Origin: Blattamonas nauphoetae
Taxonomy: Eukaryota; Preaxostyla; Oxymonadida
Direction: 5' to 3'
Assembly (NCBI GenBank): GCA_033064195.1
Contig: JARBJD010000124.1
Coordinates: 62,001-126,000 of the forward strand
Length of the DNA: 64,000 nt
Shown piece after piece: positions 597 to 57,783 of the stretch (the stretch's first letter is position 1; each line of letters starts with the position of its first letter). Under the pieces are notes generated by a model that had not been told where the DNA came from, did not search any database, and was given only the letters and a program-made list of their open reading frames with translations. The translations under genes were made by a program, and so were the position numbers.

Positions 597-3500
597 ATGG
601 TATTTGTGCTGTTCGAGACGACTGAAGAGACCACACCACCCATCCAAATATTTCTCCCTTTTGATCGTCATGTTCCAATTCAGACTGCCAAGCTACATTT
701 CCAGATGCAGTTCGCCGCCCAATATACGATTGAACATGCCCAGTCGATTGAGTGGCATACTATTTCAATCCAAGATTTGAACAGTGACCAACGGGTGACT
801 CTCTCTGAAATTGACGAATCAATGAGCCTGGGGGATCTCAGGCAGACTCAAAACACTCCTGATGGACGTTATCTCTCTTCGTTGCTGGTGATTATGACCT
901 TCTCGTCGACTGTTCTTGAAGACTCCCAATTCCAACATTCACAACAAATCTCTGACTTTGAAGATGTCACATGTGACGAATACTTGAAAAAGGACCTCCC
1001 AACGATTGCACGAAACGTTCTTGTAGCTATTGATTCATCGATTGGACCTTTGAGTCAATGTGAATTTCCGAACTACAACAAGCGACCTGACGAAGTCATG
1101 CCTCTGGACACGTCCAAGTTCATGATGAAGACAGTTGGAAGTTATTGGGGTACGGAAAATCTGGAACATCCTTTGAAAGACATCCTGTTTCGGCCATCGT
1201 GGTACTCTCTCCTCAGCCACATTTTGTTCAATTCCCAGAAGTATGAACGAAAACCCGATGATCAGAAAACTCGGCCGATGACTCATGTTGTGATAGGGTC
1301 ATCTGGAGTGGGAAAATCAGCGCTTCGCTTTCCCGCGATCACGCTTGCTCTGAGCCTTGGAGCAAAGGTTTGTGTCTTTTAATTTGTTGATGTTTTTAGG
1401 AAGTATGTTCAGCAAAAGCAGATGAATATCCTCTGAGATTTGTCCGAAAGACGATTGAAGTGACCACTCAATCAACCTCCCTCACGCAACCCGATCCCCA
1501 CCCCACACCACTCCCAACTGCAGATTCCCCCGCAAAGAAGCCGACAATGCGCGTAGCTCACGTCAACATGCCACCACGAGATGCTCCCATCACGCCAACC
1601 ACCTACAAATATGAAGTCTTCATCTCAAAAACAAAAGCCGAAATTGTTTATGACGACAACTTCTTCAAAACGGAATACTTCATACGACAAGAAATGGACC
1701 CCAACAATCCTGGAGAAGTGATCTACACGCAACCAAATGAAGAGAACTGGATCAAGCTGGGGGAAGTGGAAGTGCCAAGCATCCACCACTTCCCTCATTT
1801 CCTGCGTCTGTTTGTTGATCGCCGTGACCAAGTTCGCAACCCTCTTGAAGACAAGACATGGCACATTATTGATGAGTATGTTTCTATATCCTCTGCATTG
1901 CTCCTTTTTCTTGTCTAGTCTCGAGTTGGTTCCAGAACATTTCAAGCCATCCCAACACTACATCCTTCTGACCGCACCGAACCAGACACATTTGAAACAC
2001 ATTGTCGAAGCAAAGAAACCACTGAAAATTCCGCTTGTGATGTATGTTTCTCCGAGGTACACCGTTGCAGAGGAAGTGAACATGCTGAATGCCATTCCAT
2101 TCAAGTTCGAACCTTACTACGAAAGCTATGTTGCCGGACACAAAAAGATTGTCAAAACTCTCGGATTCACACCACGGAACATGCAGGATTACGTGCAGTA
2201 TGGCAGGGAGCTGGAGAGTCTGAAAAAACTCGCCAAAAAGGTGAAAGTGAGCGGAGATATCTTTGGACAGTCGATCTCCCACAATCTGATTGTGCTGGAC
2301 AGCCCGCAAGCCGACCCGCACAACTTCACAACAGCCTACGCATCGCCGCGTGCTGAAGAGCTCGTTGCAGAGAAGTGGAGGAAACATCTGAAGGCGCAGT
2401 GCGTTCACTTTGTCGATGGAACTGGAGTTATCAACACAACAGATGAAGTCAAAAAATTCATGATCCACGCACTCTTCAAACGGCTAACCAACAGCGCTGT
2501 TCGTCAGGGAGCACACTTTTCAAAAATGAAGATCAGAGGACAACCCGTCGTCTGCGAGGACGGGAAGCCGTTCTCGTTTCCTCCGACACCAACACGAAGT
2601 GGAGTGGACTCGAGCGGGACATGCGACACACTGCACGCCTTCCTTCCCAACATGGCCGAGTTTCAATGTTCGGAAGAGAACAGATTCGACGACGACAAGT
2701 GGGGCCGATTCTTCGTCAATGCAATGGAAGACGAACCTATCATGGGTGGACCAGTTGAGGAGAAGAAAGGAAAGTTTGTGTTCAAGAAGACAGACACACC
2801 GAATCCGATTGAAGTCGAAGTCGGGGGAATCACTCCGATCGACAGTGTGACTCCATCTGACGAGCAAACGATGGATCAACACGAACAGCCAACAGCACAA
2901 GATCATCGACACAACCCCTTCCACTTCTTCACCTTCCACCTCGTCCCACAAAGCTTGTACAACGCAGGCTTCGAGTCGATTCTGCTGTTCTTCCGAGTGG
3001 ACTCCACAAACAAGATCGACTCGCTGGGCGTGCACTTCCTGAAGTCGTCGATTGGAGATGGGGAGGAGATCGATGAAGTTGGAGCAAATGCGATGATGGC
3101 GTGGCTGGCTCTGCTGATGGATTTGTACGAACTTCGAGCAGACCAGATCTTCCCGCACTTCGTGTTTGTGGTGTCGGAGCGAGTGTTCGATCGATTTACA
3201 CCGAATACTCTATTCGTCACAGACTTCATTCCTGAAGACAACATTGTGATTGCTGCACTGACATCACCAACTGGGAACCTGAATGATCTGACAATCGAAG
3301 CAGAGGACACACTGTTGCTGGATACAGGACAGCGACTCCAGCCAAACAACGACCCAATGTGTTTGCGTTGTGGATTCTGTGGAGAAGTGATCGGAGGCGA
3401 GTTCTTTCATCATGAGTGCATCAACACGAAGAATGGTCGAAGTAATCTGAACTTCCAAAGACAGCTGCTCGATCCAACAACCAGACACTCGCTCTTCAAG

Positions 3501-5435
3501 AGCGAACCGCAATGGAAGAAGAAGATTGCCAAGTCAGCGTGTAACATAGTGTCTGAAGACGACCCAACGTTCTTCTACACACAGAAGACACTGGCGGAGA
3601 GAGAAGCAGACAGACAATCGGGATCGTCTGACCGACACGCCGACACGCACCCAGTTGGACTGCAAGTGAAGTACCCGTTCCCGACGATGGCTCGACCAAA
3701 TGCAAGAATGTCGGGGAACCATGTGACATTCGACGTTGTGCGAGTGACGATGGTGTCGCCTGTCGAAGCGCAGAGACTTGGGCGGAGACTGCTGACCGAC
3801 AGCTTCGGGAACACCGAGCACGCGACACTTCAGTCGATTTCAGTCACAGTCAGCCTGCCTCAGCCACTCCCTCCTCCATGTCACCTCTACCGCACTCCGT
3901 TCTGCCCACCACCACGACGACGATTTGAAGACCACATCGGTTTCCCTCAAAGAAAGAAAATCGGCATTGATCCCGAGGGGCATATTGCGGAAGTTGATGT
4001 TGTAATTGATGACTGGTCCGACGGGGAAATCTCCACTGATTATGATGAGGATGACCAGGATAGTTCAGAGGGCGAGGAGTCGACATCAGACGACTGGAGA
4101 CGAGAACTCGAACAGGCAGACGAGCAACAAACGTGGCGCGATCCTAATCAAACGGAACCAACCACTTCGGACATGGCAGACCAACTTGACACTTGGAGCG
4201 AGAGGATTTGGATCAAGATGGAGACAGATGGGAACACATGTTCTGCCAGAGCGACTTCCCTAAGTCCTTACACATCGCTTGAGTTTGAAGAACCATCGCC
4301 ATTTCTGGTCAATTGCGACGATTGTCTGGGGCAGATGATGCTTCCGTTCGAGCAGGTCGGCGAGTTGCGAGAGAGGATTCGGCGATCGTTCCCTGCGATT
4401 CATCCTTCCCTCCTCAGCCCTCACCCACACACTGAGAAATCACGTCCACAACTAATGATGGAGCTGTGTCTGTTGGTGATCCAGCAGGAACTGGAGCTGT
4501 TCTGGCAGATGCTGAGTCTGCCCAACATGACCGAACCAGATTTCGACTCGTCCTTCGGGTTCTCATTCTGCGGACTGCAAATGATTCTCCAAAAGTTCAG
4601 AATGTTCATCAAGTTCAGCGTCAATTTCCAGCGAGATCTCCGCTTGTTTGCAAAACAGCTGCTCTCCAAAACTTCTGCTGTCCAGGCTCGCATAGCGACA
4701 ATCACAAGAGGTCTTGTGTCTTCAACTCACATTGACATTCTGAACTGGTGTCACGTGACCATTTGGAGGGACACACACCCCAAAAGGGAAGATAGTCCAT
4801 CGGAGTCTCGAATAATACAGATGGAGGATGAGCTGAAAGCACTAGATCAATCTGTAATGAAGCCGATGTACGATTCACCATCAATCCCCAAAGATGCCGG
4901 AGACCAGACAACACCGAATGATTCCAAAATGTCCCCAGAATTGCTCGTGCAGCGAGAGATTCTCCTGAAGCAGAGAGAATCCCTCCTTCATCGTGCATGG
5001 ATGCTTTTTGACTTTTTTGGTTCGCTGGCCATGACTCTCCCAGCGAGCACTCTGACACCGCACACAATCGCCAGTGCTTATCAACCGATGAGCACAGTTT
5101 GGAAGGACAGAAAGGAGACAGACGTTCTGAAATCGATGCGATATGTGAGTGCGATCATCGGAGTTGTGGAGCAGAACTATTTCCAAACACTCGTCCAAAG
5201 CAGGCCTATCAACTACGACACATTGGAGATCGAAAGAGTGAAGTGCCTCGAAACCTTTCTGAAGCTCCGGGAGTATCTGACACCCACCCTCACCCTCGAA
5301 TTGAACTATCTCCGTGGCTTGGGTCAGAAGATCATAGAACGAAAGGAGAACTCGCGGATCCACAAGACCAGTGTCCAAAATAGTCTGGTGACGATCGAGA
5401 AGGTTACAGTCAGATTTGACACAGCCGGCAACTAA
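597..5435 (+). CDS. Crinkler/RHS-like P-loop NTPase protein, copy 1
   Basis: Large multi-domain protein of the Crinkler/RHS type. In order: a ubiquitin-like header (about 600-900) and a P-loop with the GSSGVGKS motif (about 1,291-1,315). After these come an NTPase core with a Walker B-like IIDD at a splice junction, the phrase YVSPRYTVAEEVNMLNA (about 2,044-2,094), and FTPRN near 2,165. A conserved region follows (about 2,920-3,300, FHLVPQSLYNAGFESILLFF), then a C-x2-C...H-x3-C cluster (about 3,364-3,420) and a helical C terminus. Two introns are clear from reading frame and splice signals: 1,368-1,399 (32 nt) and 1,876-1,918 (43 nt). Crinklers are secreted or nuclear effectors in some eukaryotes; RHS proteins are multigene nuclear proteins of trypanosomes. 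Role here is unknown. Start is uncertain: a conserved ATG shared by the other copies lies at 483. It looks largely whole, with perhaps one break. Confidence 0.6.
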
Positions 5436-10331: not shown

Positions 10332-10479
10332 TGGAAGGCACTGAGTGATAGTCCTCCCATCAACCCGTACTTGTTCATCAAGTCGTACGATAATCATTTC
10401 TTGTTGAATTGAATTTGTTTCATTCCATCTCCAGCTCCTTCCGTGTTTTGAATCTTTTCTGAAAAAGTGGACACTATCA

Positions 10480-12384
10480 ATGGGCTCATTTCAAATCAAA
10501 ATGGAGAATGGACCTGTATTGACACTGTCGGAGTTGCATGCGTACATCAGCGTGGATCAGAAAGACATCCACCCGCGCTCCCCGCACGTTGTCCTCTTGG
10601 ACGGGGCGGTGGTGAGGATGTCGCAGTTTAAACTGCCGTTTCTGGAAGGACTTCTGCGCCCAACCAGAATTCGTCATCTTACTGCATTTCTTCAAGGTGA
10701 AGAGATTGGGAGAACTGGGACTCGAGAATATCTCAATAAAGCTGAATCTACACAATTGCAGAAAGAGATCCTCGAACTGATCTCCAATGGCATTCACCCA
10801 ACGTACAAGGACGTCGGAAGGATGGTGTGTTCCGCAACAGTATCTTCCATCTTTTTTCAGGCTTTTTCGATTCGTCGAGATCGGTTGAGATATGTCTCAG
10901 TCGACATCCACGAACCATGCAGAAGCTGGGTCAGTGGATGGATCAAGAACCATCCTCTTTTCAAGGCTCTTAAGCCAATCTGTATGGAACAAAGAAGGCA
11001 GAATTCATTAACGAAAAGACATACACAACCGTTTTTTGAAAACTTGAAAAAGCTGATCGACGAACACGACTATCCACCAGAATTAGTCTACAACTTTGAT
11101 GAGACATCATTGGTTTCTACACAGTTCATTTATGAAAAAAGGATCACGACATACAGTAGTTCAGTCGCCTATTCAACGCCGCCGTCAATGATCTTCAGTC
11201 ACACGATGCTGTTCACAATCGCTGCTGATGGGGAGGCTCTAACTTCTCATCTGATCCTCCCAGCCAAAACGAACCAAGATTCCCTTTCCAGACATTTCCC
11301 TTCCCGCTTTTCTTTCCACACCTCACAAAAAGGGTGGATGAACAAGGAGCTCCTCTACGATATCCTGATCAATGGACTAGGTCCAGAAATTCAAGAGCGT
11401 AAAAGGAAAATCAAAAAGCCTCTCTCACGAGCGCTATTAATATTTGATGGACACTCGTCCAGGAATCAACCAACTCTGTGGAAACAACTTGCAGACTTGG
11501 GGATTGACAGTATCTGTCTCCCCTCCAATTGTTTCTCTATTATGCAACCCTGTGACCTCTACGTCAACTCCGCATTCAAGCGAAATCTTCAAAAACTCCC
11601 GCCACTACCATCAAAAACAAAACAGAATTCAGAACTAATTCCATGGCTATTAAAGGTGGAATCGGCTGCTTTAACTGCTCTTGATAATTCAGAACAAATT
11701 ATCGCAAGCTTTCGAGAATCTGGCATTTTTCCCTTCAACCCGGAAATTGTTACCAGTCAATTGCGAGACGGAAGTCCTGCAGAAGAAACTCGTCGTGGAT
11801 TCCCGCTTGGTTCGAAGGTCCTCTCAGATCCAGTTGTTCAAAGTGGGTGGAGAACACATCTGAAACTGCCAGACGTTGATGACGAACAAGATCTCGAAAC
11901 AGTGAATCCACTTTCGATTCAAGCTGAAATTGATGATACTGATCCATTTCTTGAAGCTCATCAGCTAGCTCTAAGAAAACGTCTGATGTTTCCCTCACAA
12001 TCTGAAAATGATGATGAATTTGAGAACCTCCCTATTTATGGAAGCGAAACTCCACTTAAACAGATTCCAACAGGCAATGAAACAACTACACATTCATCCT
12101 CACAGCCTTCATCGAATTTGGAGAGCCATCTACTACCTCAGTCACGCGGCCATCCACGAATGATCCGAGACGACGACGATGATGAACCTATTCCTCGCTT
12201 ACCAACGAAAACAAAGAGACAGAACTCGACGCCATCGACCATTCAATCCCCTGAGAGGCAGACAACAAAACAAGAGCGTCAGGAGACTCCTCCGTCGTTG
12301 CATACCTCGACTCCGAGACGATCGTCAACAACTCAGGGAGGACGAACAAAACATACTCCGGAGTGGTTTCGACAGTTCGGATAA
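10480..12384 (+). CDS. pogo/jerky-type DDE transposase
   Basis: 634-codon frame of the DDE_1 (pogo/Fot1/Tigger/jerky) class of Tc1/mariner transposases. An N-terminal DNA-binding region includes the CENP-B-like phrase SWVSGWIKNHPLF (about residues 149-161). The catalytic triad is visible: D207 in YNFDETS, D323 in LLIFDGHSS, and D359 in IMQPCDLYVNSAFKR, a DD35D spacing. The last 150 residues are acidic then basic and probably disordered. A 36-nt segment at 10,825-10,860 (GTGTGT...TTTTTTCAG) is a likely intron of length divisible by three, so the frame is open whether or not it is spliced. The core motifs are intact, so it could be active or domesticated. I found no convincing terminal inverted repeats around it. 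Confidence 0.75.
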   Translation: MGSFQIKMENGPVLTLSELHAYISVDQKDIHPRSPHVVLLDGAVVRMSQFKLPFLEGLLRPTRIRHLTAFLQGEEIGRTGTREYLNKAESTQLQKEILELISNGIHPTYKDVGRMVCSATVSSIFFQAFSIRRDRLRYVSVDIHEPCRSWVSGWIKNHPLFKALKPICMEQRRQNSLTKRHTQPFFENLKKLIDEHDYPPELVYNFDETSLVSTQFIYEKRITTYSSSVAYSTPPSMIFSHTMLFTIAADGEALTSHLILPAKTNQDSLSRHFPSRFSFHTSQKGWMNKELLYDILINGLGPEIQERKRKIKKPLSRALLIFDGHSSRNQPTLWKQLADLGIDSICLPSNCFSIMQPCDLYVNSAFKRNLQKLPPLPSKTKQNSELIPWLLKVESAALTALDNSEQIIASFRESGIFPFNPEIVTSQLRDGSPAEETRRGFPLGSKVLSDPVVQSGWRTHLKLPDVDDEQDLETVNPLSIQAEIDDTDPFLEAHQLALRKRLMFPSQSENDDEFENLPIYGSETPLKQIPTGNETTTHSSSQPSSNLESHLLPQSRGHPRMIRDDDDDEPIPRLPTKTKRQNSTPSTIQSPERQTTKQERQETPPSLHTSTPRRSSTTQGGRTKHTPEWFRQFG

Positions 12385-37462: not shown

Positions 37463-39607
37463 AACTTTGTGGAGTCAGTTCAAGATCAGTTGTTCTCATT
37501 CTTCCTTCCTCACTGTGCCTCGTCCTTCCGCAGACTCCACCCTCCGCAATCCACACAATTCAATTCCTCGACTCGGATTTCAGGTGCTCAGTTGTAACTC
37601 CTGTGTTAACTGTCACTGCTGCTCTCCACGATGTCCACGTGTCGTTCTTAATCGGTGTTCTTTCGGTAGCTTCAACCTCTTGCTCCACTTTCTATCTCAC
37701 TGCCACCTCCACTTCCCTGTATCTTCCCCTCCCCACCGTCCACTTCCACACGATGACCTATCGCATCCCGCCTCAAATGCTCTTCTGGACCCTCCCTGTC
37801 AGCTCCCGATGCACAAGGTGCACATGCACATACCCTCGCTCATTTGCCGAGACGATGCGACTGTATCTGTTCTCCTCTCTTCCTTTCTGCACGAACAAAA
37901 TATAAATCAAGAAGATGAGACAATGAAGAACCTCTTCCAGCGAACATTTTCTTCTCACACGTCTTTGCCACAAGCTGGATGTAGGACGTCTTCCTGTGTG
38001 TCATCACTGGAAGAGCACAGACACCAACCGGTTTGTGTTGTGCCTGTTCATCTTCTCACTCTCCCCTTCTCCAGCAACCTCGTCACACTGCCCACCCATC
38101 CCCTTTATTTCGACCAAATATCTGTGCCACATCGTCTGCTTCTGGATTCTCTGCCAGTGCGAAGAACACCATCCCGAAGCTGTGGACGATTCAAATAGTG
38201 TGCAGATGATGATCCGACAAGGCTCTCGGTCGAGATGCTCTTTCTTCCTCCAATTCTACGCAAGAGCCATAAAACTGCCATCTTTTATTCCCCTCCTTCC
38301 TTTTTTCTCATCTCATGTTTTTTTAAGTCTTTCCTTACTGCCTCTCATTCTAAAAGTCAGATCAACCCAAATCTCATCTTTTCCGGAAGAGAATTCAAAT
38401 TGGTCGCTCAACGAAGAAAAGAGAGTAAACTCATAAACAATGACACGATTTAGACAGGAAACAACGATCATCCGATCACCACTGGAGATCGCACTGATTA
38501 TGGGTTCGAAATAAAGAATGGGCTTCATCTCCCCCAGTTTCAAAACGCGCACCCAAGTTCGGGTCCTCACTTATTTCTATTGTGATTCTCTTTCACTTTT
38601 TTCGGGACATTTGAGTTTTGTGGATTGGACGGGTTTTGTGGATTTCCCTTACACGAAGGTCAATCAACTTCGTCAGACAAACAGACAGGGACCACCAAGT
38701 TTCAACTTCAAAGATGACAAGTTGGACAAGGAACCGCTTTAATTGGGTCATGGACTTCCAGTCACTTCAGCCCATCTCATAGACCCTCCACAAACCCGTT
38801 TTTAAATATAAACCCGTCTTTATTCAAAAATAAGAAGAATAGTTGTCTCAACTCGACAGGGAGTCAAAGTGAAGTGTACAACAAACGAGTCGCAATATCT
38901 AGGCAATCTGCTTCTTATTTTCGATGTTCGGAATGGTTTTTGAAAGAATGGGTCACAAAATTATCGTTAACTTCTCTCCGATCATTATCTATGAATGATC
39001 CAAAATTTGGCATCTAACTCCTCTTCTCCATCATTCGATGCAATTTTTCAACCGTTTTCCTGATTCGAATACAAGTCAACGTTCACCACACACTCCAAGT
39101 CTCGACCCGCACACTCTCTCTTACCACAGCCTCTCACCATCCACCTAACATCATCGAAGTTCATCAGCCATACGTTTCATGCCGACTTCAGTCGATCATG
39201 TCCAGGCGGGGAAGATATTTACTCAGACACTTTCTGAAGCTATCTAGTCGCTGTGAACAAATCAAAATCAACCAAGCGCTCCACAAACAGATGAAAAAGC
39301 CAGCATGACTTCATTGGATGCAGAATATATCCAAATAAATCACACCATTCCGATTTTGCCCAACCAGACATCCATCATCCAAAAATACCCTCTAATCCTC
39401 CCAAAGACCTCGTGGGCCCATCAGAACAAGTAAATTAGATCAGGAGCGGACGTATCACAACCTTTTTCTTCGCAGCAGATTGAATCGGTACGAGTGATGG
39501 TCTCGCTGATCACACGTCCTCAACACCATCCGATTGGGCAGCTGACCGAAACGTAGCTGGAAATTGTTATTCACTCACTGTTTCCACTCTTCCTTGTAGG
39601 TAAACGC
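37463..39607. other. Pyrimidine-rich region with uncertain exons
   Basis: The plus strand is strongly C/T-rich through 37,500-38,300, so long frames such as 37,359-38,198 are weak evidence. Parts could be exons of the gene starting near 36 kb. From 38,450 to 39,600 nothing recognisable is present apart from the inverted end at 38,780. Confidence 0.3.
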
Positions 39608-40634
39608 GTGTCTAAACGCCTACAGATATGTTTCCGTCTGAACAACAGATCAACTCGCCACAAACGGAGAATGCCAAAAGCAAGAATGGAAGCTGGGAAG
39701 GAACTATTAAATCAACCAGAAACCAACAGTAGCGCTCACACGCTCCTGAGGTCTGCCTACTCACACCTTTTCGTCCACTTCTTCCTGTTCCTTGCCATTC
39801 ACTCCATTTCCCTCGACACAGCCTTCTTTCTATTTCTTCACCCTTCCCTCATGTTTTCCTCCTTACTTTTCCCTCTCCAGGTTCCCTCTCTCCCACATCT
39901 TCATCACCCCCTTCTCAACCGAAGAAGAGGCCAAGCATATAAAAGGCTTCTTTCTCAACAACGGTCCCTTCGGAGGCTCAATGGAAGTGCTCCGACATCT
40001 ATACACAATGCACAAATGTCATATTCCATTCACATGGACTCTGATCAAACACATTACACAATTGCTCGCTTGTGTGCATTGGATGCTGCCGCACGAGAAC
40101 CAGGACGGAAAGGATGAGCATTTTGTATCTTTCAATGTTTGTTGACATGAAATTCATTGGATTGGGGATATTTATCTCCTTTTCTCATCGCGTCTTTCCG
40201 TGTCATTTCTCCTCGATCTCATCAATTGTCCATAGTTCTCTCACTCTTCCTCTCCTTCCCCATCTCTCCCAGAAAACAAGCCCGCACTTCCGAATGCCAG
40301 ACATGAACAATCCTTGGACAACGACAGTCCCGCTCATAGAAGAACAATCACAGAAGCATCTGGGCATGCCCTCCACATCTTCTTCTCGTACATAAGAAAG
40401 CCACGACCAGCATCATCATCAAAGAAAAGGTATCGGAGTGAGAGAAAGATGCCCCATTGTTTGGAAACATTCACATTTCATCACTTCATTACCGGTTCAT
40501 TTTTCTCTCTAAATTTCATTGTCAACGTGTAAATAAGGGTTTAGAAGAAATGAAAATCACACTATTATTCGAATTCTGGGTCTTGGTGAATAAAAACGGG
40601 TTTATATATTTTAGACGGGTTTGTGGAGGGACTA
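38780..40634. repeat. Inverted 45-50-nt ends enclosing 1.85 kb
   Basis: TAGACCCTCCACAAACCCGT at 38,780 and its near-complement ending GTTTGTGGAGGGACTA at 40,634, with the AT-rich continuation also matching (to about 38,830 and from 40,585). Looks like an older transposon; the mariner element begins exactly at its right end. No target duplication recognised. Confidence 0.5.
39888..40145 (+). CDS. Unrecognised exon
   Basis: The block FITPFSTEEEAKHIKGFFLN...GPFGGSMEVLRHLYTMHKCH, then IPFTWTLIKHITQLLACVHW to TGA at 40,143, is convincing as protein, preceded by a pyrimidine tract and CAG acceptor around 39,880. Possibly the last conserved exon of the gene beginning near 36 kb, or a captured fragment within the inverted pair. 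Function unknown. Confidence 0.35.
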   Translation, partial: LSHIFITPFSTEEEAKHIKGFFLNNGPFGGSMEVLRHLYTMHKCHIPFTWTLIKHITQLLACVHWMLPHENQDGKDEHFVSFNVC

Positions 40635-41108
40635 CAGGTATGGCTCGAAGAACTGGGACCGAATTTTTCTCCCTCAATATTGCATTATTTCATTTTTCCT
40701 TTAAATTCACCAGTGAAAGTGGTCATTCTCCTTATTTTGAAAAAACACCGAGATAAACTAAAATTCTCCAAAATGAAATGCGGGTGTTTGCGATCAATTG
40801 TCCCTCGTCCTATCGAGTGATCCTCTGTGACTCTCGTCCAACAAACTTCGCCTCCATCATGTGTATGTTCCTCTTCTTCATTATTTCCGTCCTATCTGCC
40901 CTTTCCAGCGCGAATGAGTTTTATGACTTCCTCCTCACTCAATTAGGCAAAGATGAGCTATTGGACCCTGGAAATGGTATGACATGCTAGTTTAAGTCTT
41001 TTAACCTTTCTCTTCGATTTAGATGGTTGTCGTACCTTTTTGTGTACTTTAAGAGGATGATCGCAATAAATTGTCCGGTCTAATCATACTGCTCCTTGAT
41101 ACGTGACA
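40635..41108. repeat. Left inverted end of the mariner element
   Basis: About 475 nt matching 44,469-44,946 in reverse. Both arms contain a 70-codon frame with a hydrophobic, signal-like stretch (MCMFLFFIISVLSALSSA). Because the arms are copies, its presence in both is not independent evidence of coding. A diverged related stretch lies at 51,275-51,540. Confidence 0.8.
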
Positions 41109-41346
41109 ATCACCATAACCAAAGTGCGGAAATAACGCATTTTACCCGAATGAAGTCGAGACAGTAAACAAGATACAACCATAAGAGATTTTTGAAGATT
41201 GAGGAGAATCGGACAAGAGCCCAGGAGTTTTATCATATTACTGAATCTGTTTTCATTTCCACCCTTTTTCATTTCATTTCACATTGATTCATATACAATT
41301 AATTCTATTTTTTGTTCTCTTGTCTGATCTTGCCCATGATTTAAAA

Positions 41347-42364
41347 ATGTCATCTGCTCTTGTTCGATATCGTGATCGTTCGATCATCTATTTCTGTTTC
41401 CAACTCAAACTGACACAAAAAGAATGCCTTGTGAAATGTCGACTCGCCTTTCCAAAGGATCATCCTTCAAAATCGTCGATCTCTCGAATTTACGGAGAAT
41501 TACAGCAAAATCGGTTCCGTTTTATCACTCTCTCTCCTCCTGGACTCCCAAAAAATGTTGAAATTCGCGAAAAATTGCGGCAACTCGTCTCAGAAAATCC
41601 GCACGCATCCACAAGGTGGTTTGCGACACGAATACCCTGCGCAAGGACAACTGTGAAGAAGATTTTGAAAAATGAATTGAAATTACGAAAGGTCACAAAC
41701 CGGTATGTCCCTTTCGAACTGTCTCCCGAGCTGAAACTACAACGGATGATTCTCTCTCAATCCATGGGTGCATTTCTGCAATCCCAACGATCTACTCAGT
41801 TCCACAATATTCTAACAGGGGACGAATCATGGTTCTATTTAGAATACCAACACAAACATACCTGGATCGAGCAGGGGGCTCCGCTTCCGACAATCGTACG
41901 CAAATCAATAAGTGCCAAAAAAACAATGGCACTCATCTGGTGGGGGGTTGAGGACACCCCAGTTGTTAAATGTGTCGACCCTGACACAAACGTTGATTCC
42001 ATTGTATACATAGAAAATGTGTTGGAAAGGTTGAAAATATGGAGAGAAAGGGAAGGAAATGAAAGTAAAGAGGTATTCATACATCAGGATAATGCCAGTA
42101 TTCATCACTCTCGTATTTCGCTTGCGGCTTTGAGTCTGGCGAACCTCTCGATCCTCGAACACCCAGCCCATTCTCCAGATCTTGCGCCATCCGACTTTTT
42201 CCTCTTTCCGTACCTCAAATATAAGCTTCAAGGAATTTCAGCATCAAATCATCAACACATGGAGAGTCACTTGGCGAAACTGATGGCTGAGATCAGCCCC
42301 GAAACAAAAGTTATGGTTTTCGAAAATTGGATCACAAGACTAAGATGGGTTGTGGAACACAATG
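41347..42364 (+). CDS. mariner transposase (DD34D)
   Basis: Transposase of the mariner family, which cuts and pastes DNA at TA sites. I choose ATG 41,347 (MSSALVRYRDRSI); an upstream ATG at 41,284 adds a hydrophobic stretch atypical of the family. An N-terminal paired helix-turn-helix region is followed by the catalytic core. The first Asp is in LTGDESWFY (about 41,814-41,840), the second in HQDNASIHHS (about 42,083-42,112), and the third in HSPDLAPSDFFLF (about 42,172-42,210). Exactly 34 residues separate the last two, the classic mariner DD34D. The WVVEHNG near the end precedes the family's usual C terminus. The frame stays open across a likely 52-nt intron (42,365-42,416, GTGAGT...ATTAG) and splicing fuses it in frame to the OTU exon. 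All catalytic residues are present. Confidence 0.85.
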
Positions 42365-42416
42365 GTGAGTATTACAACGAAGGTTTCATTTTTATTACAT
42401 TACTCATCTGAATTAG

Positions 42417-43253
42417 GTCAGAAATGCGTGAATTCGTTCACATCATCACATCCTATCAACTCTCTCCCTTCTCCTCAACAAGCATCGAAACCTTCACAAC
42501 ACACACTCACAGATGAAGTGGCACCAATTCACAACTCAATCGAAACACTAGTCCATTCAACGAACACAATTCCAGCGGGCAGTTTTCCGACCACCAACTC
42601 TGTCGACCTACACATTCCTGCATCCATCCGAAAAGTATCCTTTGATCCTCCCAACCAAACTATTTCCCACATCAATCAAGTTGTAATGGGGTACACTCCT
42701 GATGATGCGGATTCGGATCTCCGCCATTTACGTTCTTTTACCGATCCAAGGTCATCACATCACAAATGGCCGGTAATGGGGGACGGAAACTGCTTCTTCC
42801 GAAGCGTTTCTGTCTCCCCTGACAAACACGGAGGATCATTTCTCTTATCTAAGACAAATCACCTGCGAGTATTTCAAACAACATTCTCAATTTTACCTAG
42901 GTTGTCTATCGCTCTTCACGCCCCCAATTTCAGCGGATCAATACTATAATGAGATGAAAGTGGACGGGACATATGCCGATTTCATCGCAAATCACTGTTT
43001 GTCACACGCTTTTCAACTCTCAATTGTGATTTGGACTCCTGACAATCCCTGCTTGCCATGCCCTGTTCATTTCACCGATGGCCGCATTATTCACCTCTCC
43101 TACTCAAGGGAGAGCCAGCATTTTCAACCACTGTTGTCTGACCTTCAGTGGGCTCAAGCGAACGTTTTGTACTCGCAAAATCCAATCGCTGGCAGGAAAC
43201 GACGGTTTGCCTTTCATTTTAGAATTTTCTTTTCGGAAGCAATCAGTGAGTAG
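42417..43253 (+). CDS. OTU-type cysteine protease domain, fused to mariner transposase
   Basis: Second exon of the mariner gene. A Ser/Thr/Pro-rich linker (about 42,420-42,770) leads to the OTU box GDGNCFFRSVS (42,782-42,815) with catalytic Cys and preceding Asp. The domain continues as YLRQITCEYFKQHSQF, QYYNEMKVDGTYADFI and AFQLSIVIW, ending at ESQHFQPLLSD with the catalytic His (43,119-43,121). The Cys-box part and the rest lie in different frames, with a shift between about 42,800 and 42,815, so this copy has either a frameshift or an unseen tiny intron. OTU proteases remove ubiquitin from proteins; some other eukaryotic transposons carry them. After the His come basic residues (GRKRRF). 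In-frame fusion to a mariner transposase is not something I know from described families. Confidence 0.7.
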
Positions 43254-43376
43254 CGAAAAGAAAAGAAAAAAAGCAAAACCAGCAGAAAAACCGTGCAGTG
43301 GGGAGACAAGCGACAAAAGAGAAGTGTAGGAAGTCCAAAGAAAAGAGGTATACCATCGAAGAAAAGATTGTAGCCT

Positions 43377-43850
43377 TTGGTTGCCGATAACTTCGGAAAA
43401 ATACGACTGAACCTCTCTTCGGGCTCCCGTATCGGCTCCCGTGCCAGTCTACCTCCTCTCCAACTGCAGCCTCTGCCTCCGCAACAGTCTGTCATCATCG
43501 CCAACCAGCACATGTCCTCCCGAAAGCTTCCCAAATACCGACACTCGCATCAATTCAGAACGAGCTGTCCGATTCACCCTAATCGAGTCTCTTCGCTCCG
43601 ATCCAAACGTGCAGTTGTTTTTGGTAAACCTGCTCACGTTCGGCACACAGCGCTTCACAAATGCCTCGTCCGTCTGGATCCTCGCTTCCCTCTACTTTCA
43701 ACACATCCTCCACAACACAGCCCGCGCAGCAGATGCTCTTTAGAAGGCCAAACAGTCCGTCCCTCACATCATCGAACGCTGGACTGAGTTCTGCTTCATG
43801 CGGGAGATGGAGCTGACAAAGGTGGCCGAAAACAGGCCAATTTTCTCATA
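43377..43850 (+). pseudogene. Host-like fragment, TmcB-style helical segment
   Basis: The plus-strand block around 43,530-43,850 reads INSERAVRFTLIESLRSDPN, VQLFLVNLLTFGTQRFTNAS, LYFQHILHNTARAADAL, then TAG at 43,741, then KAKQSVPHIIERWTEFCFM REMEL in the same frame. The spacing of A..L..A....P...R resembles the cytoplasmic helical part of TmcB-like (tiny macrocysts) multi-pass proteins that are often coupled to nucleotide cyclases in flagellates. It sits inside the mariner element between the OTU exon and the right end, so it may be a captured gene piece. Identification is tentative. Confidence 0.3.
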
Positions 43851-44468
43851 ATTTGGCTTTATCTGTGGCTATAAACAGGACAGGGGAATAAAAGACAGAC
43901 TTTAGGACTAGGGAAGTATCGAGACCTTGACATGTGGTTATTTTGGAGTTTCGTGATGGTCAAGAATGAAAACAACCGTCTGTCCACCTGCTGTGCGTCA
44001 ACCCTATCAATCAACTGAAGGGAATCAGGGTTTGACTTCAACTTTCTTATTTTGTTTCAAAGTCACCTGTTTGTACCGATCTTGATTGGACACAAAACAG
44101 AACATCGCAAAACACCGATCAGAAGGAGAAACGAGTGACTAATGAGCAAGATTGGACGTCCTCTTTGGAGAAAAATGCTGTTGAAGATCTTATTTGTTCA
44201 TTTTTAAGATTCCACATTTCACCAATCGCGATTGAATCAATTTGCCTCAGTGTGAAGAGGACTATGAAGAAAGAAAGGAGAAAGAGACATGAATGCGATG
44301 TGGAAGGAGTAGAATTACAGGAAAAAGGAATAGAGACACGATAAATGGGCAATCTCTGGTGTTTTCAGCGCTCCATTCTCGAACTTCAGGAACCTTCAAC
44401 AGAACCACATGTCAGGGTATCGAGACAGTTCTAGTCCAGAAATCTGTATTTAATTCTCCCTGTCCGGA

Positions 44469-44946
44469 TTTTTGTCACGTATCAAGGAGCAGTATGATTA
44501 GACCGGACAATTTATTGCGATCATCCTCTTAAAGTACACAAAAAGGTACGACAACCATCTAAATCGAAGAGAAAGGTTAAAAGACTTAAACTAGCATGTC
44601 ATACCATTTCCAGGGTCCAATAGCTCATCTTTGCCTAATTGAGTGAGGAGGAAGTCATAAAACTCATTCGCGCTGGAAAGGGCAGATAGGACGGAAATAA
44701 TGAAGAAGAGGAACATACACATGATGGAGGCGAAGTTTGTTGGACGAGAGTCACAGAGGATCACTCGATAGGACGAGGGACAATTGATCGCAAACACCCG
44801 CACTTCATTTTGGAGAATTTTAGTTTATCTCGGTGTTTTTTCAAAATAAGGAGAATGACCACTTTCACTGGTGAATTTAAAGGAAAAATGAAATAATGCA
44901 ATATTGAGGGAGAAAAATTCGGTCCCAGTTCTTCGAGCCATACCTG
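44469..44946. repeat. Right inverted end of the mariner element
   Basis: Mirror of 40,635-41,108. Just inside it, 44,390-44,475 is a diverged inverted copy of 43,865-43,945, so the right side is partly palindromic. Confidence 0.8.
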
Positions 44947-45542
44947 TATCAAAACCAGGGCTCCACTTCACTGTGATTCGGACCTGACAAGTGAAATGTT
45001 TTTATCAATGTGTAGGACTGACCAAATTCGTGTCAAATTCATGTGGGTGTTCTTTTACAAGTTCCCTAACTTGATTTCAAGGTTGATCTTGGTCACTTCA
45101 ATGAGATAGAATCATTCCAAAAACAAGTGAAAGTGAGCAATATTCTGACGACGTGGTTTGTTGTTTTGGTGTTCTCCAAACGAGTCTGTCGTCTGGTCTT
45201 CGTAGCTTCTTGCGAATGTCGCTGAATCGGTGAGTCAGACTCGTTCCTCGTTCATCGCGGCCTGCCTGCAATATTCCCATTTCCGAAGAATGCCCTCACA
45301 AACAGCTTGTTGTTTGCGCACAATTCTTTTCCATTTCAGTCTTGACTTCCATATTCTCTGTTTCTGGAGCCGTTTCAGAGTGTTGTTCCCAAAGTTCTAA
45401 AGAAAGTTCCTTCTTCACACCTTCGCCAAGAACTTTTTGAAATTTGTTCCCAATGTTCATTGTTTGTCGATTGTAGCGTGTTCTGGTTGGGCAAAGTGTT
45501 CTTTTTCATGTTTCCTGTGTCGAGTCATTTGTGTGATAAGTA

Positions 45543-52109: not shown

Positions 52110-55100
52110 TTGTGTTCAAAACATTTTTCTGAAGAAAACATCCACATGGATATGGACGTCGATGTATCATCTACATATGCAAGAGATGCGCCAACGCCAC
52201 AAGACATAGCCAAAGACGTTGTATTTGTCCTGTTCTGGACGCCTGAAGCCATCACAACACCCATCGAATTATTGTTTCCATTAAATATTAATGAGACAAT
52301 TCGGACCGCCAAAGAAGACTTTTTGAAGTGGCTCAAGTGCCAATATCCGGAACAACCCGCAGATACAATTCAGTGGCTTGATATTAGTGTGATTCATCTG
52401 TTCACTGGCGAAGAGCAGTTACTCGCTGAAGTTGATGAATCAGAGAGTCTCAGGGATGTCCTTCAGCATCAAAATACTCTTGATGGAACTGATCTCTCTC
52501 GCTTGCTGGTAATTGTGCCCTTCTCGTGGCCGGATGGATCTCATCCCCAAGTTGACCATTCTCATCAAATCACTGACTTTGATAAAGTTAAACAAGAGCA
52601 TCGATTGGAGGAACCCTTCTCAAGGATTATGCGGAACGTGCTGGTGGCTATTGACTCGTCGATGGGCCCTTTGAGTCAAAGTGAGTTTCCGAATTACAAC
52701 AAGCGGCCCAGCAAAGTCTTGCCTCTGGACATCTCCAGGTTCATGATGAAGACAGTTGGGAGTTACAAAAACACGAAAAATCTGGAACTCCATCTGAAAG
52801 ACATTCTGTTCAGGCCGTCGTGGTTCTCTCTGCTGAGCCACATTTTGTTCAATTCACAGCAATTTGTTCGTAACTGCATAGGGGAGGAAACTCAATCGAT
52901 GATACATGTTGTTACAGGCTCACCTGGAATAGGGAAGTCAGCTCTTCGCTTCCCAGCAATCACGCTGGCACTAAGCCTCGGAGCAGAGGTTTGTGTCTTT
53001 TGATTTGTTTATGTTTTTTAGGCAGTTTGTACAGCCAAAGCAGGTGAATATCCTCTGATATTTGTCCGCACGAAGAGCGAAAAGACACGTCAAAAAACCG
53101 GCATCTCGCAGCCCAATCTCAGCCCCACACCAGACTCAATCCCGGCAACAGCGACATCCCAGGGGGATGAGAAGAGAAAGACAACCCTTGAAGAGAATGG
53201 CTCTGCCCAAAAAGTGAAAACAGAGAAACACGACCCTAACGACAACAGCTTCGACACCCCACCGACTTCCCCACTATTTTCACCGAGTTTGAACCTCCAC
53301 GCCGCTCTTGCTAAAAGAACCCATTCACTTGACAGTGAAGCCTCACATCATCTCAGTGCAGACACTTCGACACCTCCCGCGAAGCAACTGACCGTGCATG
53401 TCACTCACGCCAACAAGCCTCCGCGAGACATTGCCGTCACACCAACCATCTACAAATATGAGGTGTTTGCCTACAATGCACTTGTCCAAGCATCAAGCGA
53501 ACAAGAGGAGCAGTATGGGAAAGACCTCTTCCCGGAGGGTGGGAAATCAAGTTGGGGGAAGTGGAAGTGCCAAGCATCCACCACTTCCCTCATTTCCTGC
53601 GCCTGTTTCTCAATCGTCGCAACAAGATTAAAAACCGTCTTGAAGGAAAGACGTGGCATTTCGTTGATGAGTGTGTTTCTTTCACTTTCTTGATCGTTCT
53701 GTTTGTTTGTCTAGTCTCGTCTTGGTGCCAGGACAATTGAATCCCTCCCAACACTATGTGCTTCTGACCTCACCGAATCAGAATCGTTGGGCAGACATTG
53801 TCAAAGATGATGAAAAGCTGCTTCCTTTTGTTCTGTATGTGTCGCCTAGATACACTCTCTTCGAGGGAATCAACATGCTGAATGCCATCCCAAGCCAGAT
53901 CAAATCATCGGACCAAAATACACTTGCCAAACTTGAAAAACTCGAAACGGTCGTCGAAATGCTCGGATTCACACCACGGAACATACAGGATTACATGACG
54001 CAGGACGAGGTGCTGGATAGACTGGCAGAGCAAGCTTTGAACCCGAACGTGAGTGGAGACGTCTTTGGGGACGAAATCTCTCACAAGCTGATTGTGCTGG
54101 ACAGCCCCCAAGCTGATCCACACAACTTCACGATGGCCTACGCATCGCCCAAAGCGAAGGAGTTACTTGCACAGAAGTGGATGATATTTATGCAGAGTAA
54201 GTACAATGCATTCATGGAGGTCCCAGACACTCCGGTATCAGACACCGACCTCGTCGACCCGATGCTTTTCATGCTGTTCCAACGACTGACTCACAGCTCG
54301 ATTCGTCTGGGAGCGCAATTTTCAAAAATCAAGGACCTCGATGACATTGTAACCGAAGCCGATGAGAATATGTCCTTGTCGTATCCACCGGCGCCAACAC
54401 GAAGTGCGGTCGACTCGAGTGGGACATGCAACACCCACCATGCCTTCCTTCCCGACATGGCCGAGTTTCGATGCTTGGAACACAACAAATTCGACGACGA
54501 CAAGTGGGGCCGATTCTTTCTCAAATGCATGATTGGCGAACCTTCCGAGAGTGGACCAGTAGAGCTGACGGAAGGGAAGTATGTCTTCAAAAAGAAAGAA
54601 CCCACAACTCCGCTTGAAGAAGAGAGAGTCGATTCAGACGAGAGTGCCTCTTCCTCTGAAGAACCAACGGCTAGTGAACCCGAACAGCCCATCTCACAAG
54701 AACAGACATACAAAAGTGGACGCCCTAAGCGCTCAAACCAAGTAGTGAGATACTTCGACAAACCCAAAAAGCGCAAAAAGAAAGCAAAAGTTCCCGCACA
54801 ACCAAAGCCACACAAACAAGAACCATTCGAGTTTCCCCCATCCAAACTTCACTACTACACCTTCCACCTCGTGCCGCTTGGACAGTGCAACGCGGGTTTC
54901 GACTCGATTCTGCTGTTCTTCCGTGTGATCCCCAACGCACACCCCGGCCAACCGCCCGACCAACCACCCCAGATCCACTCGCTGGGTGTGCATTTCCTGC
55001 AGTCGACGATCAGAAAGAAGCACACCATCAGTAAGGTCGGGGCGAACCTGATGAAGGCGTGGCTTGTTCTGTTGATGGATGTTTACGGTCTGAGCATGAA

Positions 55101-57783
55101 CCAGATCTTCCCGCACTTCGTGTTTGTGGTCTCGGATAAAGTTTTCAAATCATTCAGGCCGGAGACGGTGGAGAACATCACATCCTTCATTCCTGCAGCC
55201 AACATTGTGATCGCCGCGTTGACATCACCAACGAAGAATCTGATCGAAATCAAAATCGAAGCAGAGGACGAATTGTTGCTGGACACAGGGGAGCGACTCC
55301 CTCCGAACAACGACGCAATGTGTGTGCGATGTGGGTTCTGCGGGGAGGTGATTGGAGACAGGTTCTATAATCATATCTGCGCGGAATCAATCGATGGTTC
55401 GAGCAATCTGAACTTCCGCAAAACGGTTTTCGACACAACGAACACCAACATACTCTTCGTGCGAAAGCCAGAAGGGAGCAAGAAGATGGACAAAGCAGAA
55501 AAAGACCTTGTCGCGGAGGACGACCCAACGTTCTTCTACAAGCGGAAGACGCTGGCGGAAAGACTATCCAACGGACAGTTGCCATGCTCCGACCCAGATT
55601 CAGACACAAACCTAATGGGACTCCAATTGAAGTACCCGTGCCCGGATGCGACAATACCGAATACCAAACAGTCGGGGAATTACTTCACGCCCTTGCTGAT
55701 GAATGTGACCATGGTGCCGCCTCTGGACGCCTTCAGCGAGCAAGATGAGAAGCTGAAACAGGAAGCCCGCCAGACATTGCCCGAAATGGAGACTCCTCTC
55801 ATATCGCTCGCAATGGAGACCTCTCCCACATCGCCTGGTGTGGAGACCCCTCCCACATCGCTCGACATGGAGACCCTTCTCACATCGCCTGGAGTGGTGA
55901 TGCAACCCACCGACGCATCAATAGAGGCGGAAATGACTGTCGAGGACATTCGAAAGACACTGCTAAATGATAGCTTTGGGGACGGTGAGACGGAGAAATT
56001 GATCTCGATGACGATCACAGTTTCCTCCCATCAGCCACTTCCTCCCCCGTGTCACCTGTACCGCACTCCCTTTTACGAACCACCTCGGAGAACGTATCCA
56101 ATACTCCCAGAATTGCGTAAAATTGAGACGTTTGCCAAAGATGGCCCGATGAATAAAGAAGAGACGGCGATCGCGAAGTTATTCAGGGATGACCCCTCAA
56201 GGAATAATCAAAAGAATGACGAGAAGAGTGATGAAAGAGAAGATTCACTTTCTGCGAACGATGAAAACGTGTATTCAGAACCAGACTATGCCGCCGAACC
56301 ACCAAGAGCGAGGAGACTCAGTCATGCGGACACAAGTACATCGCACATGGCAAAGATGATAAAAACTTGGATGGATGGGTTAATGATCGTGTTGGTGAAA
56401 CGTGGGAACACGTACTTCGGCGCAACGGGTACTTACAAGCCTCACGCAGATCTTGAGTATGAAGAGCCAACACCATATCTGATTAAATCGAACGAGTGCC
56501 TGGGACAGATGATGCTTCCGTTCGAGCACGTCGGCGAGTTGCGGGAGAGGATTCGGCGATCGTTCCCAGCGATTCATCCTTATCTCTTCAGACCTCGCAC
56601 GCCCCCTGCGATGAAACATCCACAACCAATTATAGAACTGTGTCTGTTGATGATCCAGCAGGAACTGGAGCTGTTCTGGCAGATGCTGAGTCTGTCCAAC
56701 ATGTCCGAACCAGATTTCGTCTCGTCCTTCGGGTTCCCCTTCAGCACGCTGCAAATGTTTCTGCAGAAGATGAAGTCGTTCATCGAATCCACCAGCCCTC
56801 CCATTCAAGACAACCACAAATTTTACAGTCAGCTTCTCTCCAAACTAACTGTTGTAAAGGCTCGACTTTCAGATGTCGGAAAAGATCGGGTTTCTGCGTT
56901 TGACACGGACATCCTGAACACCATCGATCACATCAACGTCGTAAACGATGTGTGGATCTGGTATCAACTGGAAGGATGGAAGGCCAAACTCCCCAAGATC
57001 GAAGACGAGATATCGGAGACACAAATACTTGAGATGGAGGAAAAGCTGAAAAAACTGAACCACTTTGTGTATGGCCATATGCATAATCAGAAAAAGACAG
57101 AATTTGATGAGAATCTAAAAACACTCGCCTTGAAGAAAACAGCCTTCCTTCCCCATGCGTGGACACTTTATGATTTCTTTGGTTCACTGGCCATGACTCT
57201 CCCTGCGGGAACAATATGCGAATCAAAGGGATTACTTCCTTATCAACCGATTGAAGGCCAGGAGTGGAAGGACAGAAAGAATGAAGATGTTATGAAGGCC
57301 ATGCAGTATGTGAGTTCTATCATCGGCCATCTCGAATATACGTATATTCACATCCTCAAAGACCATCCCGAGTCCCGTCTCCAATTTGAGGAGGAAAAAC
57401 CGAAATATTACAAAACAATGGAATATATCTGGGAGCATCTTCCACCTTTCTTGATTGAAATCATCGATAAGGACAGTGAAGATCCTCAGAAAGTCGCAAA
57501 TGAGGCGCAATGTTTAAAAAGTCCCCCTCCTCACGAGCGAGTTGCCCACAATATCCCATCCACCTCGAAGCCGAAGTTTTCCAGTCCCCCTCGCGTGCAA
57601 GTTGCCCAAAGTGGCCCATCCACCTCGAAGTCGAAGGATTTCAACTCCCCTCGCGTGCAAGTTGCCCAAAGTGGCCCATCCACCTCGAAGTCGAAGGATT
57701 TCAGTCCCCCTCACTGGCTACAAGGCCCAAAAAAACCCTCCACAGGCCAAGTGTCCAAACGAGAGCATAAACCCCTTTCATAA
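52110..57783 (+). CDS. Crinkler/RHS-like P-loop NTPase protein, copy 3
   Basis: Best-preserved family member. Ubiquitin-like header (about 52,215-52,530) and P-loop GSPGIGKS (about 52,918-52,942); introns 52,989-53,021 (33 nt) and 53,671-53,714 (44 nt) sit at the same places as in copy 1. The NTPase core has VSPRYTLFEGINMLNAIP (about 53,837-53,890) and FTPRNIQDY (about 53,968-53,995). A basic, NLS-like tract (PKKRKKKAKV) lies near 54,764-54,795. The conserved region (about 54,850-55,250) has GFDSILLFF then LGVHFLQSTI, recalling the C-terminal domain of RHS proteins, perhaps a nuclease-type fold (inference). A C-x2-C...H-x2-C-like cluster lies at 55,325-55,380. A 30-nt minisatellite (55,780-55,900) and a 60-nt tail repeat follow. 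Nuclear localisation is likely from the basic tract. Roughly one or two breaks. The gene is the left arm of the palindrome from 53,736 on. Confidence 0.65.
55780..55905. repeat. Minisatellite of about 30-33 nt units
   Basis: Four to five imperfect units encoding (M/V)ETPPTS(P/L)x. The partner at 61,832-61,957 has the same length but many more substitutions than anywhere else in the palindrome. Confidence 0.7.
57523..57715. repeat. Three 60-nt tandem repeats at the C terminus of copy 3
   Basis: Each unit encodes about 20 residues of the form RVQVAQSGPSTSKSKDFxSP. The last two are almost identical in DNA sequence, showing recent expansion. The same array lies mirrored at 60,022-60,214. Confidence 0.8.

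Follow-up and report, generated by a model that had tools for sequence, protein, structure and literature searches.

A 4.3-kb mariner element encloses an OTU domain

The window, that is, the whole 64,000-nucleotide stretch of Blattamonas nauphoetae DNA analysed here, is C29:62001-126000; genome-wide searches covered the 88.31-Mb assembly of 837 contigs, and copies are named by contig. With a GC content of about 45%, the window holds a mariner element at 40635-44946 (4,312 bp), whose parts and flanks are as follows.

40633..40634, no strand: left TA flank (target-site duplication), found in four of four full-length copies with different flanks
40635..41109, plus strand: left terminal inverted repeat, 475 bp, starting CAGGTATGGCTCG; 99.8% identical to 44472-44946 inverted
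41347..42382, plus strand: exon 1, mariner DD34D transposase (Mos1 match, PF01359, spacing of the aspartates)
41821, 42088 and 42193, plus strand: aspartate codons of exon 1, read from the window sequence
42365..42370, plus strand: GTGAGT, the first-proposed donor, more likely coding for the NGEYY C-terminus
42383..42416, plus strand: proposed 34-nt phase-1 intron, GTTTCA...TTAG, with homologous candidate introns in other mariner families
42417..43222, plus strand: exon 2, linker and OTU; the frame of the window copy is broken between about 42816 and 43164
42417..42759, plus strand: linker, with no in-frame Met codon before 42686
42779..43161, plus strand: OTU domain, with Cys codon 42791 (GDGNC) and His codon 43119 (QHFQPL); PF02338 matches in other copies
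43254..44471, no strand: region from the OTU to the right inverted repeat, about 1.2 kb, present in C2, C57, C442 and C734
44472..44946, minus strand: right terminal inverted repeat, from the self-comparison
44947..44948, no strand: right TA flank, found in four of four full-length copies

When the window is compared with itself, 40633-41109 and 44472-44948 pair as inverted repeats, a 477-bp match that includes the TA. The original prediction had set the extent at 41347..43253, which is too short for the element and slightly too long for its coding part, which ends at 43222 by the frame of the C79 copy. Four copies are full length (4,291-4,312 bp: C29 in the window, C2, C57 and C442), each with TA on both sides and with different flanks. 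In all four, the terminal inverted repeats and TA duplication of a mariner were found, and they enclose both the transposase and the OTU. The C79 copy is missing the outermost bases of its left end as well as the entire right end. In C734 the contig begins inside the element, and the right flank is shared with C442, so it may represent the same insertion. For the insertions in the window and on C57, queries made of the two flanks joined together matched no empty site; in the window, the flank to the left of the element is itself repetitive.

In the region between the OTU and the right repeat, a Pfam scan of the ORFs at 43374-43784 and 43411-43740 found no domain, and neither Rfam families nor tRNA genes were detected in the window. 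A probable further element adjoins the mariner at 38780-40634, with 48-bp inverted ends (87.5% identical), and ends at the mariner's TA; copies of its right end occur in many contigs. A weaker internal inverted repeat (74%) at 43857-43968 and 44374-44486 adjoins the right end of the mariner, and the left flank of the C442 copy holds a 76%-identical piece of window 43825-44340, the trace of an older relative.

Exon 1 encodes a Mos1-related DD34D transposase

The frame from the ATG at 41347, which contains the GTGAGT at 42365, is open, and its earlier assignment to a DD34D mariner transposase held up. PF01359 (Transposase_1) matches the window transposase at 26.1 bits, just above the cut-off of 24, and the near-identical transposase of C79 matches the Mos1 structure 3hos_A over residues 8-295 (E 1.8e-28). 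The catalytic triad of C79 is D159, D248 and D283, with 34 residues separating the last two; both marks of a mariner, the D-D-34-D triad and the Mos1-related sequence, are present. The transposase part also matches mariner/DDE_3 families in Pfam and the Mos1, SETMAR and Sleeping Beauty structures, and no integrase. As a mariner, the element would move by cut-and-paste. At least 128 transposase matches were found genome-wide at E 0.001 or better, mostly to other families with 21-43% identity.

A candidate mini-intron joins the transposase frame to exon 2

In the original prediction, the two domains were spliced from a GTGAGT donor at 42365 to an AG ending at 42416. The acceptor is as described, and the linker frame behind it opens into the GDGNCFF box; the donor more likely lies at 42383. 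At 42365 the context reads GGT-GAG-TAT, the GEY codons of an NGEYY mariner end. We compared the C-termini of 18 mariner loci of the genome, and at the same place the other mariner families fetched have GEYY, GNYY, GNFY, GEYF, GEYI, GGYI or GEYC. Three of these families (L025, L026/L027 and L028/L029) have a candidate phase-1 GT donor 19 nt past the start of the motif Gly codon, followed by a candidate intron of 40 nt and then by an in-frame charged tail (DKKAELRYAQDQARLVDH, DKRAELLYAQDQNRDDHR, DKREEMRWRRERRRLRRLRDRNRRG). These introns were selected by visual inspection among the candidate GT-AG pairs, on account of their shared position, phase and tail; L025 and L026 are 76% identical.

An equal offset in the window element leads to GTTTCA at 42383, 18 nt downstream of GTGAGT. 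Paired with the acceptor at 42416, this donor gives the same phase and the same fused frame as the donor at 42365. We rejected the latter as unlikely, because it codes for the conserved GEY end and because three families have their candidate donor 18 nt downstream. Other loci vary at this position: in L011 and L013 the homologous donor site is GC instead of GT, and an AG there is followed by a similar charged tail; L014 has an immediate stop after it; L015, L016, L019 and L021-L024 stop at or just past the motif and have no such intron; and in L020 the frame continues for 26 residues past the motif. In chaperonin genes of this genome, the gaps between exon matches fit introns of about 36-69 nt with donors GTTTGT, GTTTCA or GTATAT, taken from candidate lists on sequence only. 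Unspliced, the frame of the window element ends in a normal-looking mariner C-terminus (GEYYNEGFIFITLLI). From these comparisons, 42383-42416 would be removed as an intron.

The two OTU boxes share one frame in other copies and not in the window copy

In the C79 copy, PF02338 matches the OTU at 39.6 bits (cut-off 23.3), and in an alignment with nine further OTUs of the genome, C471 and H580 occupy the Cys and His columns. The OTU of the element is a predicted deubiquitinase. Its match to viral OTU structures (best E 8e-6) was set aside as a basis for any inference, being weak and expected of many OTUs, and a database search with the OTU part alone found no related protein at E 0.001.

The window copy scores below the PF02338 cut-off (21.3 bits for 42777-43253), and its OTU is absent from the 38 matches of the genome-wide PF02338 search. 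The catalytic Cys and His are in one frame in C2, C57 and C79, and in different frames in the window copy. There, a run of C near 42816 has one base more than in the seven further copies in which the site survives (it is gone from C235), and a run of T near 43164 has one base fewer than in six of eight other copies. These one-base differences in run length shift the frame, so that the linker frame stops at about 42948. The profile searches bear out both domains of the original prediction, PF01359 in the window and PF02338 in C79; its statement that the Cys and His boxes are read through in one frame is wrong for the window copy, since the two boxes lie in different frames. The two joined exons of C79 give 613 aa, with an open frame through both domains; in C833 there is a gap of one base directly after the linker. 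Each assembled copy is truncated, interrupted in at least one exon, or both, which could be explained by assembly errors or by decay.

Transposase and OTU occur together across the family

Eleven loci with at least 56% transposase identity were taken as the family (C29, C79, C2, C442, C57, C734, C833, C235, C667, C308 and C154). The original prediction had asked whether other copies lack the OTU exon. OTU or OTU remains adjoin the transposase in nine of the 11, an outcome that favours the prediction. In the two exceptions, C667 and C154, no OTU was detected (for C154, as judged from genome-wide matches), and both are short relics. The OTU lies inside the inverted ends, follows the transposase at four different insertion sites and has kept its Cys and His. 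A chance neighbourhood is ruled out by the multiple copies that share this arrangement inside inverted ends.

OTU relatives without a detected transposase were found in the stretches examined of C191, C17 and C101; in C101 the linker is present with the OTU relative, in rearranged order. Genome-wide, every PF02338 match is more than 6 kb away from the mariner matches of other families; the closest such pairs are separated by about 6.5 kb (on C349) and 7 kb (on C148).

Coding constraint extends through the linker into the OTU

C79 and C833 are about 77% identical in DNA. Between them, dN/dS (Nei-Gojobori counts, by script) was 0.23 for the whole transposase (332/346 codons), 0.14 for its 3' half (160/161 codons), 0.11 for the OTU (152/153 codons), 0.45 for the linker (114/114 codons) and 0.59 for the linker upstream of Met436 (90/90 codons). 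The linker has no indel and no in-frame stop across its 114 codons. We also made comparisons with C308 and C235, decayed copies that both have linker deletions. These gave 0.28 and 0.26, respectively, for the transposase, 0.12 and 0.17 for its 3' half, 0.14 and 0.12 (49 codons) for the OTU, and 0.58 and 2.5 (12/114 codons) for the linker; with C308, the linker upstream of Met436 gave 1.77 (37/90 codons). The linker thus shows weak constraint against C833 and, by the 1.77 and 2.5 values, none in these two decayed copies.

Against the C101 relic, linker residues 379-435 have 23, 25 and 39 differences at codon positions 1, 2 and 3 (pS 0.77, pN 0.42). The third-position excess is lost in two shifted frames, each of which has three stops; residues 436-473 show one stop in the reading frame. 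In the spliced frame, then, the OTU is under strong purifying constraint and the linker under weaker constraint. Exon 2 of C79 has no Met before residue 436, and Met436 is the only one before the Cys box region. As the linker is constrained and lacks a Met, translation should come from upstream, in exon 1.

A fused protein is the preferred reading

Taken together, the element is probably a long mariner that encodes a two-domain protein, a DD34D transposase followed by an OTU, by way of a 34-nt phase-1 intron. That the fused protein is made we consider very likely. In its main point, a mariner transposase joined to an OTU by a small intron, the original prediction agrees with the copies, with selection (weaker on the linker) and with the candidate introns in three families, all of which are evidence from sequence.

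The same locus might instead yield two proteins, with the transposase stopping unspliced at 42409-42411 and the OTU made separately, either starting at the 42686 ATG or from a different transcript. The unspliced tail GEYYNEG... does look like the C-terminal end of other mariner transposases, the window group and C833 have an ATG in frame ahead of the OTU, and the OTU relative of C191, which has no detected transposase beside it, matches only from residue 431. However, the linker upstream of this ATG is open and under coding constraint without a Met, candidate homologous introns with similar exon-2 tails occur in other families, and the ATG site is TTG in the C308 relic. Two separate proteins are accordingly an improbable outcome.

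It is also conceivable, although on the whole unlikely, that the element is extinct, so that a fusion that once existed is now decaying in every copy, with a pseudogene in the window; as a history, this is compatible with the fused protein. Each full-length copy has its frame broken by small indels, and C79 has lost its right end. On the other hand, the copies of the window group differ mostly by length changes in one-base or two-base-repeat runs and by few substitutions, and the inverted ends are 99.8% identical, as would be expected of recent insertions. Homopolymer errors in repeats are common in Illumina-polished Nanopore R9.4 assemblies. The probable source assembly was made in this way, according to the available text of its description (PMC10703272), and the frame breaks may be errors of this kind. 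Least probable by far, and already disfavoured, is an inert OTU captured by chance in one lineage. Among the mariner families seen in the genome, only that of the window element has an adjoining OTU, which would suit such a capture, but the OTU has a dN/dS of about 0.11, keeps its catalytic residues and is present in diverged subfamily copies, and OTUs follow two other types of transposase in the same genome.

A possible role for the OTU in transposition

If the fused protein is made, splicing of the mini-intron would join the transposase frame to exon 2 and place the OTU behind a linker of about 110 residues. Exon 2, apparently a short charged tail in other families here, may have become the carrier of a captured OTU. 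The OTU would then act in cis on the transpososome and remove ubiquitin from the transposase or from cut-site proteins; degradation of the transposase would thereby be avoided, and excision or integration could be completed. The main alternative target would be repair or chromatin ubiquitin, and the simplest proposal is escape from ubiquitin-dependent degradation. Protection of the transposase and action on chromatin were also the roles suggested in the original prediction. We favour self-protection of the transposase over other targets of deubiquitination only tentatively. Because the pairing of transposase and OTU recurs, a general benefit for cut-and-paste transposition is likely.

Relation to known transposons

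The window element resembles mariners of the Tc1/mariner superfamily (Mos1, SETMAR type) in its DD34D triad, Mos1 match, TA flanks, inverted ends and GEYY-type C-terminus, and differs from them in the C-terminal OTU behind a candidate intron. It is also large. Classic mariners are about 1.3 kb long, and OTU-less mariner loci of this genome measure 1.6-2.2 kb (10 of 14 loci examined had pairable ends; L015 was measured by a second match), in contrast to 4.3 kb with 475-bp ends. The mariners L012, L014, L025, L026 and L028 have transposases 27-32% identical to that of the window element, TA adjoining their ends where these could be paired and, in several, a candidate 3' mini-intron. Unlike the window element, they have a short charged tail as their candidate exon 2 and no detected adjoining OTU.

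Helitrons are rolling-circle elements with a Rep/helicase. That OTUs are passengers of some other transposon groups, as the original prediction stated, is documented. In the available text of PMC2836005, Ginger1 elements are described as having a DDE cut-and-paste transposase, a C-terminal OTU in several families, 0-4 introns and TIRs of 44-270 bp, and their C-terminal OTU domains are suggested to aid transposition or repair. The accessible parts of PMC4067079, and also of PMC2836005, describe OTU proteins encoded by Helitron/Helentron elements. The likeness to Ginger1, whose C-terminal domain is an OTU or Ulp1, is one of architecture only and holds only if the candidate intron is spliced out; in Ginger1, as far as that source describes it, the transposase resembles a Gypsy integrase and has a zinc finger and a GPY/F motif, whereas that of the window element is mariner. 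We rejected membership in Ginger1, since the Mos1 match makes the transposase a mariner one and it lacks the Gypsy-integrase character. With Helitron/Helentron elements, the window element shares a transposon-encoded OTU; unlike it, they are rolling-circle elements without a DDE transposase.

The claim that no mariner-OTU fusion was known still stands, within the searches made. The open-licence literature searched, in the parts available, yielded no report of one, and among the protein-database matches listed for the fusion (120 of 163) none bears an OTU Pfam label. An OTU on a transposase is thus known from Ginger1 and, as far as these partly available sources go, apparently unreported on a mariner. 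Since few eukaryotic transposons are as simple or as well understood biochemically as mariners, it should be possible to measure directly what a fused deubiquitinase does to transposition. The arrangement also suggests that a new domain may dock at a 3'-terminal intron.

OTU domains behind other transposases of the genome

L067 (C57:89711-93022) encodes an IS1595/ISXO2-type transposase with a C-terminal OTU in one ORF; DDE_Tnp_IS1595 (PF12762) matches at 39.3 bits (cut-off 27) and PF02338 at 32.9 bits, over its cut-off. L077 and L065 are like L067 by near-identical sequence, L065 in its OTU end only. At L068 and L088 (C701:21399-25950), a 967-aa hAT-like ORF ends in an OTU (31.5 bits; NGSCF...GNHYQPM), and its hAT dimerisation region is below the cut-off (17.8 vs 21.4 bits). 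This ORF has many near-identical copies; L066, L070-L072, L074, L080 and L081 are similar. With the mariner, OTUs therefore follow three types of transposase, of which the hAT-like one is named less surely. An OTU on a mariner and on two further types suggests that transposases repeatedly face control by ubiquitin and that transposons answer it by fusion. More speculatively, and in our view rather unlikely, three or more unrelated DDE transposases (mariner, IS1595/ISXO2-type and hAT-like) may each have gained an OTU as a repeated counter-defence against a ubiquitin-based defence of the host.

Five further loci (L053, L054, L061, L063 and L064) have open frames of 1,369-1,756 aa with an OTU; the scanned part of L053 has no Pfam domain besides it. 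Elsewhere in the window, long ORFs at 1722-5435 and 53671-57783 (1,237 and 1,370 aa) have no Pfam match, and the ORF at 10408-12381 carries a DDE_1 transposase domain (49.4 bits).
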